A stretch of 64,000 nucleotides of DNA from Elusimicrobiota bacterium (GTDB taxonomy: Bacteria; Elusimicrobiota; Elusimicrobia; UBA1565; UBA9628): assembly GCA_003151975.1 (NCBI GenBank), contig PLZD01000015.1, positions 1-64,000 on the forward strand, in the 5' to 3' direction. A model generated the notes under the pieces. It searched no databases and was not told where the DNA came from. It saw only the letters and a list, made by a program, of their open reading frames with translations. Both the position numbers and the translations under genes were made by a program. How positions within the stretch are numbered: the stretch's first letter is position 1; each line of letters begins with the position of its first letter. Below are positions 53,212-64,000 of the stretch, in pieces.

Positions 53212-55542
53212 CTACTCCTGGCGGACGTGGGCGCGGCGCAGGAGGGCCGCGATGCGCGCCAGCAGGGCTTCCTCGTCGAAGGGCTTGACGAGGTAGTCGT
53301 CGACGCCGATCTTCTGAGCTAGGGCTTGGCTTGCGGCATTATTGACGGCCGTCAGGATGACGATGGGCACGTTCCAGATCTTGAGGTCGGCGCGGACCGT
53401 CTTGATGACGCCGACGCCGTCGAGCACGGGCATCTGCAGGTCCGTGATCAGAAGGTCGGGCATCTTCTCGCGCAGCATCTTGACGCCTTCGGCGCCGTTG
53501 GCAGCCTGGCGGACCGCGTAGCCCTCGGCCCGAAGGATCCGGCTGAGCAGGATGCGGATCGACTCCTCGTCGTCGATGATCAGGATCTCCTTGCCGTTGA
53601 CCGGAAGCGCCGCGACGGGACCCGGCGGCAGCGGCGTCGCAACGGGAGCGGCGACGGCAGCGGCGATCGGAGACGGAGGCACCGGGACCTGGATCACGAC
53701 GGCCCCTGGCGCCGGAGCGGGATTGGCCCCGGGAGTCGGCGCATGCGCCGGGAGGATTGGAACCGATTGGGTCGTCTCCGACGGCGGAGCCGTCGCCTTG
53801 GCGATTTGGTCCTCGGCCTCCGCCACTGAAGTGTCGCCCATGCAGACGTGCCAAATAAGATCGTCTTCCGGCGACAGCAGCCAGCCGTTCTTCGACGCCT
53901 CCCTGCGGAACTCGGTTTCCTGCACGCCGGCGGTGATCATCCCTTTGACGTCTTGATTGACCGACAAAAACTCCGCTATCACGATACGCCCCTTGAAGCC
54001 CGTCTGGGCGCACTGCACGCAGCCCGGCGCCTTGATGAGCTTGGGCTTGAGGCCCATCCGCTCGGCGGCTTCGGCCATCTCCTTGGGCAATTGGCCGGGA
54101 TCGTCCTGCTTGCACTGCGGGCAAACGCGGCGGACCAGGCGCTGGCTTGAAACGCCGGAAATCGGCGACGCGATCTTGTAAGGGTCGATACCCATCTGCA
54201 CCAGGCGCGAGATCGTCGCGACGCAGTTGTTGGAGTGCAAAGTGCTGAGCACGAAGTGGCCGGTGTTGGAAGCCTGGAAGGCGATCTCGGCGGTCTCCTT
54301 GTCGCGCATCTCGCCGAGCAGCACGACGTCGGGGTCTTGGCGCAGCACCGAGCGCAGGACCGCCGCGAAGGAAAGGCCGGCCTTGTCGTTGATCTGGACC
54401 TGGTTGATGCCGTCGAGCCGGTACTCGACGGGGTCCTCGATGGTGACGATGTTCGTGGACTCCGAGCGCATGTAGTTGAGGCAGGCGTAGAGCGTGGTCG
54501 TCTTGCCGCTGCCGGTCGGGCCCGTCACGAGCATCAGTCCGACCTCGTTGTCGAGAACCGTCTTGAGTCTGTCTTTTACCTCAGGTCTGAATCCCAGAGC
54601 CTCGAAAGGGATTTCGGCAGAGCGCTTGTCGAGTATGCGCGCGACCACTTTCTCTCCCAGAGCCGTCGGGAGCGTGGAGATGCGCAAGCCGATCTCGTGG
54701 CCGTCGATCTTGATCTTGGCCCGGCCGTCCAGCGGCCGGCGCCGGTCGGCGACGTCCATCTTGCCCATGACCTTGATCCGGGTCACGAGCGGCCCGTTGC
54801 CGATGCTCTTCGGCAGCGTCAAAATGTTGCGCAGCTGGCCGTCGATGCGGTAGCGCACGACGGTGCGCGTGTCCTCCTGCTCGATGTGAATGTCGCTGGC
54901 GCGCATCTTGACCGCGTTGACGAAGATGGAGGTCGCGAGGTTCGAGACCGGGCCGCCCGACTCGCCCTCCATGGCCTCCAGCGGCGTCATCTCTTCTGGC
55001 TCGGGCTCGGCGTCGCCGACCTCGACGGTGGAGTTGGCCTCCGTGCTCAGCTGCTTGGCCAGCTCGTCGGCGGCCTTCATCGGATTAAATTTCTCGTCGA
55101 GAAGCTGCGCGATCTTCTCGGGGACGCAGAAAAGCGGCTTGACCGTGCGGCCGGAGATGGCCGTCAGGTCCGAGAGCACGTCGGGGTTGAGCGGGTCCGA
55201 CATCAGCACGAGCAGCGCATCGCTTGCGAGCTTGAAGGCGATCAGACCGTGCTTGCGGCAAATCTTCTCCGGGACGAGGCCCACGGCCATCGCCTCGAGT
55301 TCCTCGGTCTTGGGGTCGGCGAAACCGACGCCGTACTTGCTTTCAATAAGCTCGGTGAGCGACTGGGCCGTCATCAAGCCGCGCTTAAGGAGTTCCCCGG
55401 AAAGCGAGTTCGCCTTGGCCGTTCTAATATCGACTAACGCCTGCGCCAACTCGGTACTGCCGCGACGGATCAGGCCGGCCAGCCATTCGTCCTTGAACTT
55501 GTGCTCCGGTGCGGCGGCCCCGGCGCCCGTCGGCGGGTTCAT
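53212..55542 (-). CDS. GspE/PilB-type ATPase fused to a C-terminal receiver domain
   Basis: 776 aa from ATG 55542. The N-terminal helical domain (SLSGELLKRGLMTAQSLTELIESKYGV) is of the GspE_N/MshEN type. The ATPase has Walker A GPTGSGKTTT (Lys347), Walker B DPDVVLLGEMRDKETAEIA, the His box NTGHFVLSTLHSN and a four-Cys zinc element (CPQC ... CVQC). A ~60-residue Pro/Ala linker leads to a receiver domain at about 650-770 (ILIIDDEESI, phosphoacceptor Asp701 in LLITDLQMP, LVKPFD). Assembly ATPases power type II secretion or type IV pili. A covalently attached receiver suggests direct phospho-control. It overlaps the upstream receiver gene by ATGA. Confidence 0.92.
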   Translation of the reverse strand: MNPPTGAGAAAPEHKFKDEWLAGLIRRGSTELAQALVDIRTAKANSLSGELLKRGLMTAQSLTELIESKYGVGFADPKTEELEAMAVGLVPEKICRKHGLIAFKLASDALLVLMSDPLNPDVLSDLTAISGRTVKPLFCVPEKIAQLLDEKFNPMKAADELAKQLSTEANSTVEVGDAEPEPEEMTPLEAMEGESGGPVSNLATSIFVNAVKMRASDIHIEQEDTRTVVRYRIDGQLRNILTLPKSIGNGPLVTRIKVMGKMDVADRRRPLDGRAKIKIDGHEIGLRISTLPTALGEKVVARILDKRSAEIPFEALGFRPEVKDRLKTVLDNEVGLMLVTGPTGSGKTTTLYACLNYMRSESTNIVTIEDPVEYRLDGINQVQINDKAGLSFAAVLRSVLRQDPDVVLLGEMRDKETAEIAFQASNTGHFVLSTLHSNNCVATISRLVQMGIDPYKIASPISGVSSQRLVRRVCPQCKQDDPGQLPKEMAEAAERMGLKPKLIKAPGCVQCAQTGFKGRIVIAEFLSVNQDVKGMITAGVQETEFRREASKNGWLLSPEDDLIWHVCMGDTSVAEAEDQIAKATAPPSETTQSVPILPAHAPTPGANPAPAPGAVVIQVPVPPSPIAAAVAAPVATPLPPGPVAALPVNGKEILIIDDEESIRILLSRILRAEGYAVRQAANGAEGVKMLREKMPDLLITDLQMPVLDGVGVIKTVRADLKIWNVPIVILTAVNNAASQALAQKIGVDDYLVKPFDEEALLARIAALLRRAHVRQE

Positions 55543-55910
55543 TTCTTGTAGGCTCCCAGCACGAGCTGTATCAGTTCGAGCGCCTCGTCGGGGTCGAAAG
55601 GCTTGCGCAGTATGCCGGAAAGCTCGATGCCTTCCGCGGCGCGCAGCTCGCCGTCCACGCCAAGCGAGCCGGTCGCGACCAGCACGCCCGAGGACGGAAA
55701 CTTCGCGCGAAAGGCGCGCACGAAGTCGAGGCAGAGGCCGTCGGGCAGTTTGTAATCGGTGATGAGCAGGGCGCACTCGGACATCGACACAAGCTTCTCC
55801 CCTGCTATCGCCAAGTTTTCGGCGTACTCAGCGTCGTGGCCGGTTCCGCGCAGCATGTAGCCGTAGAGCTTGCGGATTCCGGCGTCGTCCTCGACGATCA
55901 ACAGCTTCAT
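55539..55910 (-). CDS. Single-domain response regulator
   Basis: 123 aa with a full receiver set: LLIVEDDAG, phosphoacceptor in LLITDYKLPDG, VATGSL and ILRKPFD. It overlaps genes on both sides by ATGA, so it is translationally coupled to the kinase upstream (55907) and the ATPase-receiver downstream. It is the natural phosphorelay intermediate of the operon. Confidence 0.9.
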   Translation of the reverse strand: MKLLIVEDDAGIRKLYGYMLRGTGHDAEYAENLAIAGEKLVSMSECALLITDYKLPDGLCLDFVRAFRAKFPSSGVLVATGSLGVDGELRAAEGIELSGILRKPFDPDEALELIQLVLGAYKK

Positions 55911-56992
55911 GCGGCTTTGCCTCCCGCGGGCAGCGAGACTTTCATGCGGGTCCCCTTTCCCTCCTCGCTGAAAACCTCGATGGCGCCGCCGTGCTGCTTG
56001 ACGATGCCGTAAGCCGTCGACAAGCCGAGCCCGGCGCCTTGCCCGGGCGCCTTAGTCGTGAAAAAAGGGTCGAAGATGCGGCCGATGGAGGCCGCCGGAA
56101 TCCCGCAGCCGTTGTCCTCGATCTCGATTCCCGCGAGATCGCCGTCGCGGCGCACGCGCACGTCGATTTTCGGCTTCGGCCGTCCGGCCAGCGCGTCCTT
56201 CGCGTTGCCCAGCAGCGCCATCAACGCCTGCTGAAGCTGGGACCGGTCGCCCTTGACCTCCGGCGAGGGATCGACGACTTGCGAGTCGATGCTGACCCCG
56301 ACGCAGGTGCACCGGAAGAGCTCGAGGGCGTCGTGGACCAGCGCGTTGAGCGCGATCGCCTCGCCCTCGGTTGATTTGCGGCGCGCGAACTGGAGCATGT
56401 TCTGCACGATCTGGCTGCAGCGCTTGCTCTCCTTGAAGATGCGCTGCAAATCTTCCTTCTGCTCCGCGGTGAGATTGGGAGCCTTGAGCAGCCAATGGGT
56501 GAAGCCGATGACGCTCGTCAGAGGGTTGTTGAGCTCGTGAGCGACGCCGGCGGCGAGCTCGCCCAGCGAAGCGAGCTTCGCCGATTGCTCCAGTTGCAGT
56601 TTCGTCTTCTCAAGGACTCCGCTGGTCTTCATGATCGCGCCGACGATCAGCGAGAGCATCTCGCCGTCGACGGGCTTCTCCAGCAGATGATAGGCACCCT
56701 GGCGCATCGCGTCGGCGGCGCCGTTGTGCGGGACTTTGGCCGCGGTCATGATGAACTCGATGCCGGGGCAGGCGGCCTTGGCCTTGCGCAACAGTTCGAG
56801 GCCGTCCATGTCAGGAAGCGCCATCTCGCACACCGCGGCCTGCGCACGCTCCTTTGACAGCGCGGCCAGGGCCTCCTCGCCGCCGCCCGCGACGCGTACG
56901 GCGTAGCCCGCGCCCGAGAGCGCCTTGGAAAGCGATTGGCGGCACGCGGGATCGCGGTCGACGATCAGCACGCGCCCTTCCGGCTCGGTCAT
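55907..56992 (-). CDS. Histidine kinase with N-terminal pseudo-receiver
   Basis: 361 aa. The N-terminal receiver fold (VLIVDRDPACRQSL; QAAVCEMALPDMDG; HLLEKPVDG with Lys106) has Glu56 in place of the phosphoacceptor Asp and Arg13 in place of one acidic-pocket residue, so it is probably not phosphorylated. HisKA follows with AAGVAHELNNPLTSVIGF (His152), then HATPase with ALLGNAKDAL, DNGCGIP and GAGLGLSTAYGIVKQHGG. It has no transmembrane helix. It is coupled by 4-bp overlaps to the coiled-coil gene upstream and the receiver gene downstream, and is probably the kinase for both downstream receivers. Confidence 0.9.
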   Translation of the reverse strand: MTEPEGRVLIVDRDPACRQSLSKALSGAGYAVRVAGGGEEALAALSKERAQAAVCEMALPDMDGLELLRKAKAACPGIEFIMTAAKVPHNGAADAMRQGAYHLLEKPVDGEMLSLIVGAIMKTSGVLEKTKLQLEQSAKLASLGELAAGVAHELNNPLTSVIGFTHWLLKAPNLTAEQKEDLQRIFKESKRCSQIVQNMLQFARRKSTEGEAIALNALVHDALELFRCTCVGVSIDSQVVDPSPEVKGDRSQLQQALMALLGNAKDALAGRPKPKIDVRVRRDGDLAGIEIEDNGCGIPAASIGRIFDPFFTTKAPGQGAGLGLSTAYGIVKQHGGAIEVFSEEGKGTRMKVSLPAGGKAA

Positions 56993-58185
56993 TCCAGAAT
57001 CCCTGGACCGCCGGATTTCTCCTGGGCGGCCAGGACCGCCAAGCGCAGGGACAACTGATGGTAGGACATCGTCAAATCAAGAAGCTGGGCCTTCATCGCG
57101 GCCATCGGTCCCAAGAGCTCCTGGCGCAGGACGTCGAAGCTGGGAGATGATCCGGAGGCGCCTTGAAACACCGTCGGCAAGGCGGCCGGCGCGGGCGCGG
57201 GCCGCGGCGCCTCGTTCATGCGCGAAAGCTGGCCGGCCACGCTGTACTTGAGGCTCGTGATCGCGGCGGCAAGATCGGCCTTCATCGCCTCGCGAAAGCG
57301 CTCCATGCCGGCCTGCACGTCGCGCATCGAATCGGCCAGTTCGTCGAAACCCGGCGTTTGCGCGAACGAGACGGGCAGGCTCTCGGGGCGGGCCTCGGCG
57401 CGATCTGCGAGACGCGCCTCGAGCTCGGCGATGCGCTTGTCCTTCGCTCCGAGCTGCTGGCCCATCATCGCCTTGAGTTCGAGCACCGAACGAGAAAGAG
57501 CCTCAATGGCCGGCGTCGGGTCGACCACGCGCGCCGGCGGCGCAGAAGGAGGAAAAGGCGACTTGGCCGCGACCGCCTTTTTAATGTCGCGGATGGCGTC
57601 CAAAACCTCGGATTGATCGATCGCCGGCTGCGACGCAGAAAGAGGCGGCTTGGCCGCGACAGTCTTCTTTATGTCGCGGATGGCGTCTAAAACCTCGGAC
57701 TGATCGATCGCCGGCGGCGCCTCCCGGACCGGCTCGGGGCGCTCGGACATCCTCTTGAGCGCACGTTGGACGGCTGCGCTGTCGCGCACGAAAGCGCCCT
57801 GAAGCTCGTCCAACGAAGTCTTGAGCTCGCGCACCATCCCCGTCATGGCGCCGATCTCCTTGACGGAGACGGACGCGGGAGCAGGTACCGCTGCCCGGAC
57901 CGGCTCGGGAGCCGGCTCCGGCGGAAAGGACGGCGGCGGGGTCATCTCATCGGCCAGCGCGGCCATGCGCTTCATCAGGTCCTCCCCGCCGTCATCGGGC
58001 TTGGCTTCGGCGGCGGGCGCCGACATCTCCTGGGCGAGTGCTGCCATGCGCTTGACCATCTCTTGCTGCGCTTCGTCCGGCGCGGCCGCGGGAGCCGGCG
58101 CCGACATGGAGGAAGCCAGCTCCTCCATGCGCTTGAGGAGGTCCTGCTGGGCGTTGGTCGCCGGATCGTGATTTTCTTCCGACAT
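56989..58185 (-). CDS. Coiled-coil repeat protein heading the kinase/ATPase operon
   Basis: 398 aa from ATG 58185, 7 nt after TAAACT (the TTG one codon earlier is less likely). Three N-terminal repeats of about 27 residues share the pattern 'LLKRMEELASSMSAPAP', 'MVKRMAALAQEMSAPAA', 'LMKRMAALADEMTPPPS'. In the middle, AIDQSEVLDAIRDIKK occurs twice. Long coiled coils follow (IEALSRSVLELKAMMGQQLGAKDKRIAELEARLADRAE). There is no signal peptide or membrane helix. Function is unknown; it could be a scaffold for the kinase, receiver and ATPase encoded downstream. Confidence 0.75.
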   Translation of the reverse strand: MSEENHDPATNAQQDLLKRMEELASSMSAPAPAAAPDEAQQEMVKRMAALAQEMSAPAAEAKPDDGGEDLMKRMAALADEMTPPPSFPPEPAPEPVRAAVPAPASVSVKEIGAMTGMVRELKTSLDELQGAFVRDSAAVQRALKRMSERPEPVREAPPAIDQSEVLDAIRDIKKTVAAKPPLSASQPAIDQSEVLDAIRDIKKAVAAKSPFPPSAPPARVVDPTPAIEALSRSVLELKAMMGQQLGAKDKRIAELEARLADRAEARPESLPVSFAQTPGFDELADSMRDVQAGMERFREAMKADLAAAITSLKYSVAGQLSRMNEAPRPAPAPAALPTVFQGASGSSPSFDVLRQELLGPMAAMKAQLLDLTMSYHQLSLRLAVLAAQEKSGGPGILE

Positions 58186-58192
58186 CAACAGG

Positions 58193-58221
58193 AGTTTAGC
58201 CCCTACCCCTCATATTGTCAA
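58193..58221 (-). promoter_or_regulatory. Promoter of the four-gene signalling operon
   Basis: Minus strand TTGACA (58221-58216), exactly 17 bp, TAAACT (58198-58193), then 7 nt to ATG 58185. The whole operon 53212-58185 is joined by 4-bp overlaps, so this is probably its only promoter. Confidence 0.68.
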
Positions 58222-58276: not shown

Positions 58277-58672
58277 ATGGCGAACATCTTGATCGTGGAG
58301 GACGACGAGAACATCTCGACGCTCGTCGCCCATAGCCTGAAGAAGGCAGGCCACGAGGTCAAAATAGCGATTGACGGGATCCAAGCCATGAACCTGGCGC
58401 GCCAGTTTCAGCCGGCCCTCGTGGTCCTCGATTTCATGTTTCCGGCGGGCGGCGGCGCTTCGTTTCACAAACGCATTAGGCAATCAGCCCACACGAGCAA
58501 AACGCCCATCCTCCTGCTGACCGCCGCGCCCGAAGATCAGGTCATGCAGGCGATCGGCGGCGACCCCATAACCGCGTTTCTCGGCAAACCCTTTAATAGG
58601 GACGCCCTACTCCAGAAAGTGGCCGAGATGCTGGGCGGCGCGCCCCCTCAATTGACACCCCCCGGGCATTAA
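58277..58672 (+). CDS. Single-domain response regulator
   Basis: 131 aa from ATG 58277, 10 nt after TATAAT (58261-58266). Receiver features: ILIVEDDENIS, LVVLDFMFPAGGG with phosphoacceptor Asp, LLLTAAPED and FLGKPFN. There is no output domain. It is divergent from the kinase/ATPase operon and may be another target of that kinase. Confidence 0.88.
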   Translation: MANILIVEDDENISTLVAHSLKKAGHEVKIAIDGIQAMNLARQFQPALVVLDFMFPAGGGASFHKRIRQSAHTSKTPILLLTAAPEDQVMQAIGGDPITAFLGKPFNRDALLQKVAEMLGGAPPQLTPPGH

Positions 58673-63492: not shown

Positions 63493-64000
63493 TCAGTCGC
63501 CGCCGACCACGCGCACGATCTCGCCCATCGTCGTGATCCCTTGGGCGACCTTATCAAGGCCGTCCATCAGCATCGTCACGACGCCCTCCTCAAGCACGGT
63601 CTTGCGCATCTCGTCCATCGACGCCTTGCGCAAGATCGCCTGGCGAATGCCGGTCGTCATCTCGACGACCTCCATGACGAGCACGCGTCCGGCAAAGCCC
63701 GTGTCGCGGCAGGAGGAGCAGCCCTTCGAGCGGAAGAGCTCCTTGGCGATGCCGGGCGGCGCGGTGATGCCGGCGCGCGCGGTGAGGTCTTTGATCTCGG
63801 AGAGCTCGGCGGTCGTCGGCGTGTAGCTCTCGCGGCAACTCGGGCACAGCCTGCGCGCCAGGCGCTGGGCGCAGATGGCGGTCAGCGCCGCGGAAATCAA
63901 GAATGGCTCGAGGCCCATGTCGAGCAGCCGCGTGATCGCGCCCAAAGAGCTCGTCGTGTGCAGAGTCGTGAACAGCAAGTGGCCGGTGAGCGCCGCGGAC
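63493..64000 (-). CDS. GspE/PilB-type ATPase, C-terminal part (cut by window edge)
   Basis: The frame is open to the right edge, so only the C-terminal ~168 residues are present. TGHLLFTTLHTTSSLGAITRLLDMG is the His box; LARRLCPSCRESYTP and KGCSSCRDTGFAGRVLVMEVVEM form the four-Cys zinc element and signature of GspE/PilB ATPases. Walker A and B lie outside the window. It is a different paralogue from 53212-55542 and has no receiver at its C-terminus. The C-terminal extension (MDGLDKVAQGITTMGEIVRVVG) is typical of PilB/GspE. Confidence 0.9.
   Translation of the reverse strand, partial: SAALTGHLLFTTLHTTSSLGAITRLLDMGLEPFLISAALTAICAQRLARRLCPSCRESYTPTTAELSEIKDLTARAGITAPPGIAKELFRSKGCSSCRDTGFAGRVLVMEVVEMTTGIRQAILRKASMDEMRKTVLEEGVVTMLMDGLDKVAQGITTMGEIVRVVGGD

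Follow-up and report, generated by a model that had tools for sequence, protein, structure and literature searches.

A 64,000-nucleotide stretch of Elusimicrobiota DNA (contig PLZD01000015.1 of assembly GCA_003151975.1, positions 1 to 64,000; hereafter the window) encodes an extension ATPase of the PilB/GspE type that carries a phosphoreceiver (REC) domain fused to its C terminus. This motor, termed GspE-REC herein, belongs to a broad family whose receivers retain the residues needed for phosphorylation. By analogy with a two-protein system of Xanthomonas, its activity, or its engagement on shared platforms for pili and type II secretion systems (T2SS), could be set by phosphorylation of its own receiver tail, a reading that we regard as evenly poised between right and wrong. 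The gene is the last of four on the minus strand between positions 58185 and 53212, which encode, in 5' to 3' order, a repeat protein of 398 amino acids (aa), a 361-aa histidine kinase, a 123-aa stand-alone receiver and the 776-aa ATPase. All four have a strong coding signal with a codon-usage gene caller trained on the window. Each of the three junctions is a 4-bp ATGA overlap, as described in an earlier note made from the sequence alone, and a sigma-70-like site lies upstream.

The ATPase matches the Pfam family T2SSE (PF00437) with a score of 414.5 bits, compared with a cut-off of 24.9 bits, and it also matches MshEN (PF05157; 55.3 bits) and Response_reg (93.9 bits). Its N-terminal part consists of a DEW-containing extension followed by a degenerate MshEN domain. 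The T2SSE core includes Walker A (residues 341–349), the catalytic Glu411 and four cysteines, and its motifs are those of an extension ATPase save for one box considered below. A disordered linker rich in proline and alanine (approximately residues 587–648) leads to the REC domain (residues 651–776), where Asp701, the acidic pair Asp657/658, Thr731 and Lys753 are all present. The Pfam domains and key residues thus bear out the proposal of a GspE/PilB ATPase with an intact C-terminal receiver. An AlphaFold2 model is confident for the core and the receiver and leaves the linker disordered.

A Foldseek search with the window ATPase ranks PilB and GspE highest among solved structures, and core identity with Geobacter PilB is ∼42% in the structure alignment. 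Like Geobacter PilB (5tsh) and Vibrio GspE (4pht), the protein has an MshEN-like N domain, a T2SSE core with Walker A and B motifs, and the four-cysteine motif. In contrast to these proteins, it has the additional DEW-containing N-terminal segment, the disordered linker and the receiver. Its scores are below the equivalog cut-offs for both PilB (TIGR02538, 495.2 versus 675.65) and GspE (TIGR02533, 489.3 versus 630.25). No pilus or T2SS gene cluster is found among the called genes that surround it, which indicates that it is not PilB or GspE proper.

Both halves of the fusion are well conserved. In an alignment of 63 fusions, Walker A, the catalytic glutamate, the Asp and His boxes and the four cysteines are near-invariant. 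The acidic pair, phosphoacceptor aspartate, Thr/Ser and lysine of the receiver are intact in 46 of 47 fusions. The linkers, which are disordered, range from 20 to 98 residues. Residue 269 is Arg or Lys in 54 of the 63 fusions and mostly Ile or Leu in ordinary extension ATPases, and it could be a family-specific site.

One feature of some related motors has been lost. MshE-type ATPases, which are controlled by cyclic di-GMP (c-di-GMP), resemble GspE-REC in that a control domain is part of, or is joined to, the motor protein. However, they carry a pair of 24-residue RLGxx... motifs (defined in PMC5013675) that GspE-REC lacks, and the phosphoacceptor of GspE-REC resides at the opposite end of the protein. 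A loose motif scan found the two-copy motif in 0 of 41 fusions, compared with 5 of 16 ordinary ATPases of the phylum. Therefore c-di-GMP is unlikely to be the main input of the window motor. Since the motif pair is gone from the fusions, phosphate may have replaced c-di-GMP as the motor input.

The family was surveyed with a 14-member profile. Scoring was limited to the 3 or 5 best candidates in each genome, and so the counts per genome are lower bounds. In the host phylum, 45 of 341 genomes contain a match at E ≤ 1e-180, and the matches span 18 of 100 genera. For the Gemmatimonadota, 200 genomes were sampled, of which 112 have a match at E ≤ 1e-165, and in at least 80 of the 200, counted from the matches listed, the match extends to the end of the receiver. 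One protein from the Calditrichota has the same N-terminal extension, ATPase and receiver. Close homologues in the phylum and in the Gemmatimonadota therefore retain the domain, whose absence from all of them would have undermined the proposal. A Walker-motif pattern scan of genome contigs was used as a sample rather than a census. In one Gemmatimonadota locus (L107:5980-8271), the open frame of a DEW-type ATPase runs into Nudix-like sequence, and a Nudix-like gene is located 3' of GspE-REC in other genomes.

The phylogeny of the two domains points to one old fusion, retained since, within the main family, because the fusions stay together in the ATPase tree and in the receiver tree alike. The ATPase tree groups all 42 in-phylum fusions with three others (support 0.906), and the receiver tree places 41 of the 42 in-phylum fusion receivers in a pure group (support 0.875). 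Support for joining the fusions of all phyla is weak (0.1–0.8). Other combinations of receiver and ATPase exist, including kinase genes followed by REC-GspE genes in Marinobacter (L146) and Rhodoferax (L181), an MshEN-MshEN-REC-MshEN-T2SSE protein in Rubrobacter, and REC-x-T2SSE-REC proteins in relatives of the source genome (L069:5144-7561, L070, L071, L072 and L074). The Marinobacter and Rhodoferax pairs and the REC-x-T2SSE-REC proteins are similar to GspE-REC in that a kinase or response regulator gene adjoins a receiver-fused ATPase, but their receivers are N-terminal or at both ends. Because these architectures occupy other branches of the ATPase tree than the main family, they represent separate fusion events, and receivers have been added to motors more than once. 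A gene for a ∼230-aa receiver lies directly upstream of REC-x-T2SSE-REC in L069, L070 and L072.

Gene linkage also connects the fused motors to two-component signaling. A kinase, receiver or Hpt (histidine phosphotransfer) gene lies no more than 150 bp away in the same orientation for 25 of 46 in-phylum fusions, compared with 0 of 16 ordinary PilB/GspE genes from the same lineage (Fisher p = 6e-5, uncorrected for relatedness). Two gene arrangements correspond to branches of the ATPase tree. The first has a REC-HK(-REC) histidine kinase (HK) gene followed by a receiver gene of ∼122 aa and then by GspE-REC. This order is found in the window and in four other genomes (L059, L060, L066 and L193), and hence it is not unique to this contig. 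A variant in L024 has the kinase gene directly before GspE-REC. The ATPases of these five other loci form one clade (0.988), which the window copy joins at 0.605. In the second arrangement, GspE-REC precedes a ∼380-aa kinase, as seen in L064 and in numerous loci that belong to a different family (0.995). An Hpt gene is directly 3' of GspE-REC in L186, L187 and L213. The sensor part of the ∼380-aa kinase (L189:4717-5850, L064:8634-9776 and others) contains a cysteine cluster, GCGTTxxCxxCG, and so this protein is maybe a redox or metal sensor.

An experimental precedent for receiver control of such a motor exists. In Xanthomonas oryzae pv. oryzicola, EmvR binds PilB and lowers the Vmax of its ATPase activity while Km is unchanged, an effect that depends on Asp15, Asp59 and Thr87; the kinase ColS binds EmvR (PMC11973254). 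There the extension ATPase of a type IV pilus is the direct target of a single receiver, and the same is proposed here by analogy. However, EmvR is a separate protein that acts in trans on the main PilB, whereas the receiver of GspE-REC is fused to an additional paralogue that lacks a platform gene. Given that EmvR shows receiver control in trans, GspE-REC can be read as its cis equivalent, carried by spare motors that would work on shared platforms. In the proposed mechanism, the soluble REC-HK would autophosphorylate on His152 upon some cue and would pass phosphate to Asp52 of the stand-alone receiver and to Asp701 of the ATPase. Phosphorylation would then alter the binding of the tethered receiver to the hexamer, such that ATPase activity or docking goes up or down.

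Several observations weigh against this mechanism. The HTND box, whose Asp is retained in 59 of 63 fusions, reads HSNN in the window ATPase, and a few other fusions also depart from it. Because the linker is disordered, no docked pose of the receiver was obtained, and a switch that operates by contact is unproven. No two-component gene adjoins 21 of the 46 in-phylum fusions or most of the sampled Gemmatimonadota fusions, and shared ancestry means that the 46 loci are not independent data points. In addition, the stand-alone receiver of the window has no BLAST match among the receivers of the other loci with the same gene order, and its orthology with those free receivers is unsupported.

A serious but unlikely alternative is that the receiver is a localization or docking module, whose phosphorylation determines the place or partner of the motor rather than its ATPase rate, as for the receivers of FrzS and FimX at polar pili. 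The length and disorder of the linker that joins the receiver to the motor would suit such a role, and in a 2024 review (PMC11656802) the FimX REC domain, which lacks the phosphoacceptor aspartate, is described as affecting the localization of pilus assembly. However, the fusion receivers retain full phosphoacceptor chemistry, unlike that of FimX, and the nearest experimental precedent, EmvR with PilB, alters the rate of ATP hydrolysis.

The source genome is rich in motors and poor in platforms. It has 21 T2SSE loci and 11 PilB/GspE-type ATPases, compared with three PilC/GspF genes and a Tad pair, and there are four secretin matches. Four of its ATPases (C17, C39, C57 and the window copy) combine the C-terminal receiver with the DEW-containing segment at the N terminus. 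A REC-HK-REC kinase gene precedes the C57 copy and overlaps it by 1 bp. A fifth receiver-fused ATPase (C34; L221:5441-7267) carries an N-terminal receiver with no evident MshEN domain, and a gene for a pseudopilin-like protein begins 26 bp beyond it. The genome also has canonical PilB-PilT-PilC and GspD-E-F clusters at separate locations, and no gene for a platform, secretin or pilin is among the called genes that adjoin any of the four GspE-REC loci. Because GspE-REC comes without a dedicated platform gene, it would work on PilC/GspF platforms that the motors of the cell share, exchanging with dedicated PilB and GspE. Another PilB/GspE-type ATPase of this genome (C61; L010/L027) appears, as read by eye, to carry a different input domain, an N-terminal GAF-like segment.

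The same shortage could mean that GspE-REC is a repurposed hexameric ATPase that serves as a signaling output, drives no filament and is unrelated to pilins. The surplus of ATPases over platforms and the absence of partner genes at the four loci would fit this explanation, which we consider quite improbable. The catalytic, Asp/His-box and cysteine motifs are kept, and pseudopilin-like genes do occur nearby: one follows the C34 ATPase, and another overlaps a GspE-REC gene in a different genome.

The remaining signaling genes point to a branched two-component system, in which the kinase would feed one free and one motor-fused receiver. Pfam identifies REC, HisKA and HATPase_c domains in the kinase and a REC domain in the 123-aa protein. 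Over its full length, the kinase aligns at 30–32% with the REC-HK portion of the multi-receiver kinases encoded in L059, L060 and L193. The N-terminal receiver that had been assigned to it is indeed present, but its phosphoacceptor Asp is replaced by Glu; the five key positions read D,R,E,A,K rather than the D,D,D,T/S,K of a working domain. It is the only one of ∼50 receivers in the compared neighbourhoods without this aspartate, and it would serve as a sensory or dimerization input rather than as a phosphate acceptor. No match to the Hpt family (PF01627) was found in the whole source genome (4.64 Mb, 96% complete). The same search as a control gave a match in 8 of 14 genomes. In the loci with an Hpt gene after GspE-REC, Pfam confirms the Hpt protein of L187 and misses that of L213.

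The degenerate kinase receiver and the lack of a detected Hpt protein argue against the phosphorelay that the earlier note had proposed. A four-step His-Asp-His-Asp relay organized by the coiled-coil protein is very improbable even though some other family loci pair GspE-REC with Hpt or multi-receiver kinases, since that protein also lacks relatives. It is likewise hard to credit that the stand-alone receiver is the real output and the fused receiver a phosphate sink that drains the kinase, as proposed for PilH in the Pil-Chp system (PMC11656802); the operon does have two intact acceptors for one kinase, but the fused receiver is the constant element, whereas stand-alone receivers occur in only some loci and orthology between them is not clear.

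The first protein of the operon (Table 1) is indeed repetitive, with three repeat units spaced 81 nt and two units of 87 nt. The encoded motifs are KRMxxLAxxM (three copies) and AIDQSEVLDAIRDIKK (two copies). A single-sequence fold of low confidence (pLDDT, a per-residue model score, of 57) suggests that the protein is probably all-helical. However, a role for it as a conserved scaffold is not supported, given the lack of any relative among 57 related genomes. In the operon promoter, the end of the −10 hexamer lies 7 bases 5' of the first ATG (58185), and this spacing suggests that the transcript is leaderless and starts at or beside that codon.

Table 1. Features of the GspE-REC operon and the adjoining region (window coordinates).
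Feature	Position	Strand	Basis
PilB/GspE-type ATPase with C-terminal receiver, 776 aa	53212..55542	-	Pfam, structure prediction, residue check
Stand-alone receiver, 123 aa, Asp52, key residues intact	55539..55910	-	Pfam, residue check
Histidine kinase, 361 aa, HisKA His152, HATPase_c, N-terminal pseudo-receiver (Glu56 replaces phospho-Asp)	55907..56992	-	
Orphan helical repeat protein, 398 aa	56989..58185	-	Repeat analysis, homologue search, structure prediction
Sigma-70-like operon promoter TTGACA-17-TAAACT	58193..58221	-	Sequence
Divergent single-domain receiver, 131 aa, possible further system member	58277..58672	+	Pfam, relatives

The divergently transcribed 131-aa receiver has a near-consensus promoter (TTGAGA-16-TATAAT) that ends ∼10 bases before its ATG. 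Its best genome-wide relatives in G232 and G179, and a high-ranking one in G213, adjoin GspE-REC genes (loci L192, L198 and L208). A further PilB/GspE-type ATPase gene (629-aa open frame) lies ∼5–8 kb from the operon, at positions 63493–64000 of the minus strand and continuing to ∼64692 on contig C11.

Term searches of open-access papers found no study of a PilB or GspE protein with a fused receiver, and the fused-motor family is apparently uncharacterized. The earlier designation of the operon as a candidate undescribed system is weakened by the control of PilB in trans by EmvR (PMC11973254) and by the association of MshEN with REC, which is mentioned in passing in PMC5013675; proteins with both domains, such as Bd2402, are already known. 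A term search of PMC11656802 showed control by cofactors and second messengers and yielded no receiver-fused motor.

How pilus and T2SS motors are switched on and off is an open question, and that review asks what purpose multiple PilB homologues serve. A broader hypothesis, which we consider possible but on balance doubtful, is that in several phyla interchangeable extension motors, bearing a receiver at either end, a GAF domain or a c-di-GMP pocket, compete for a small number of shared pilus or secretion platforms, and that two-component signals choose the motor. GspE-REC would then be the phospho-switched class, in which phosphorylation replaces c-di-GMP. As a cis counterpart to EmvR, this broad and old family with a phosphoacceptor on the motor itself would offer an answer that can be tested directly with a single purified protein and a point mutation at D701.

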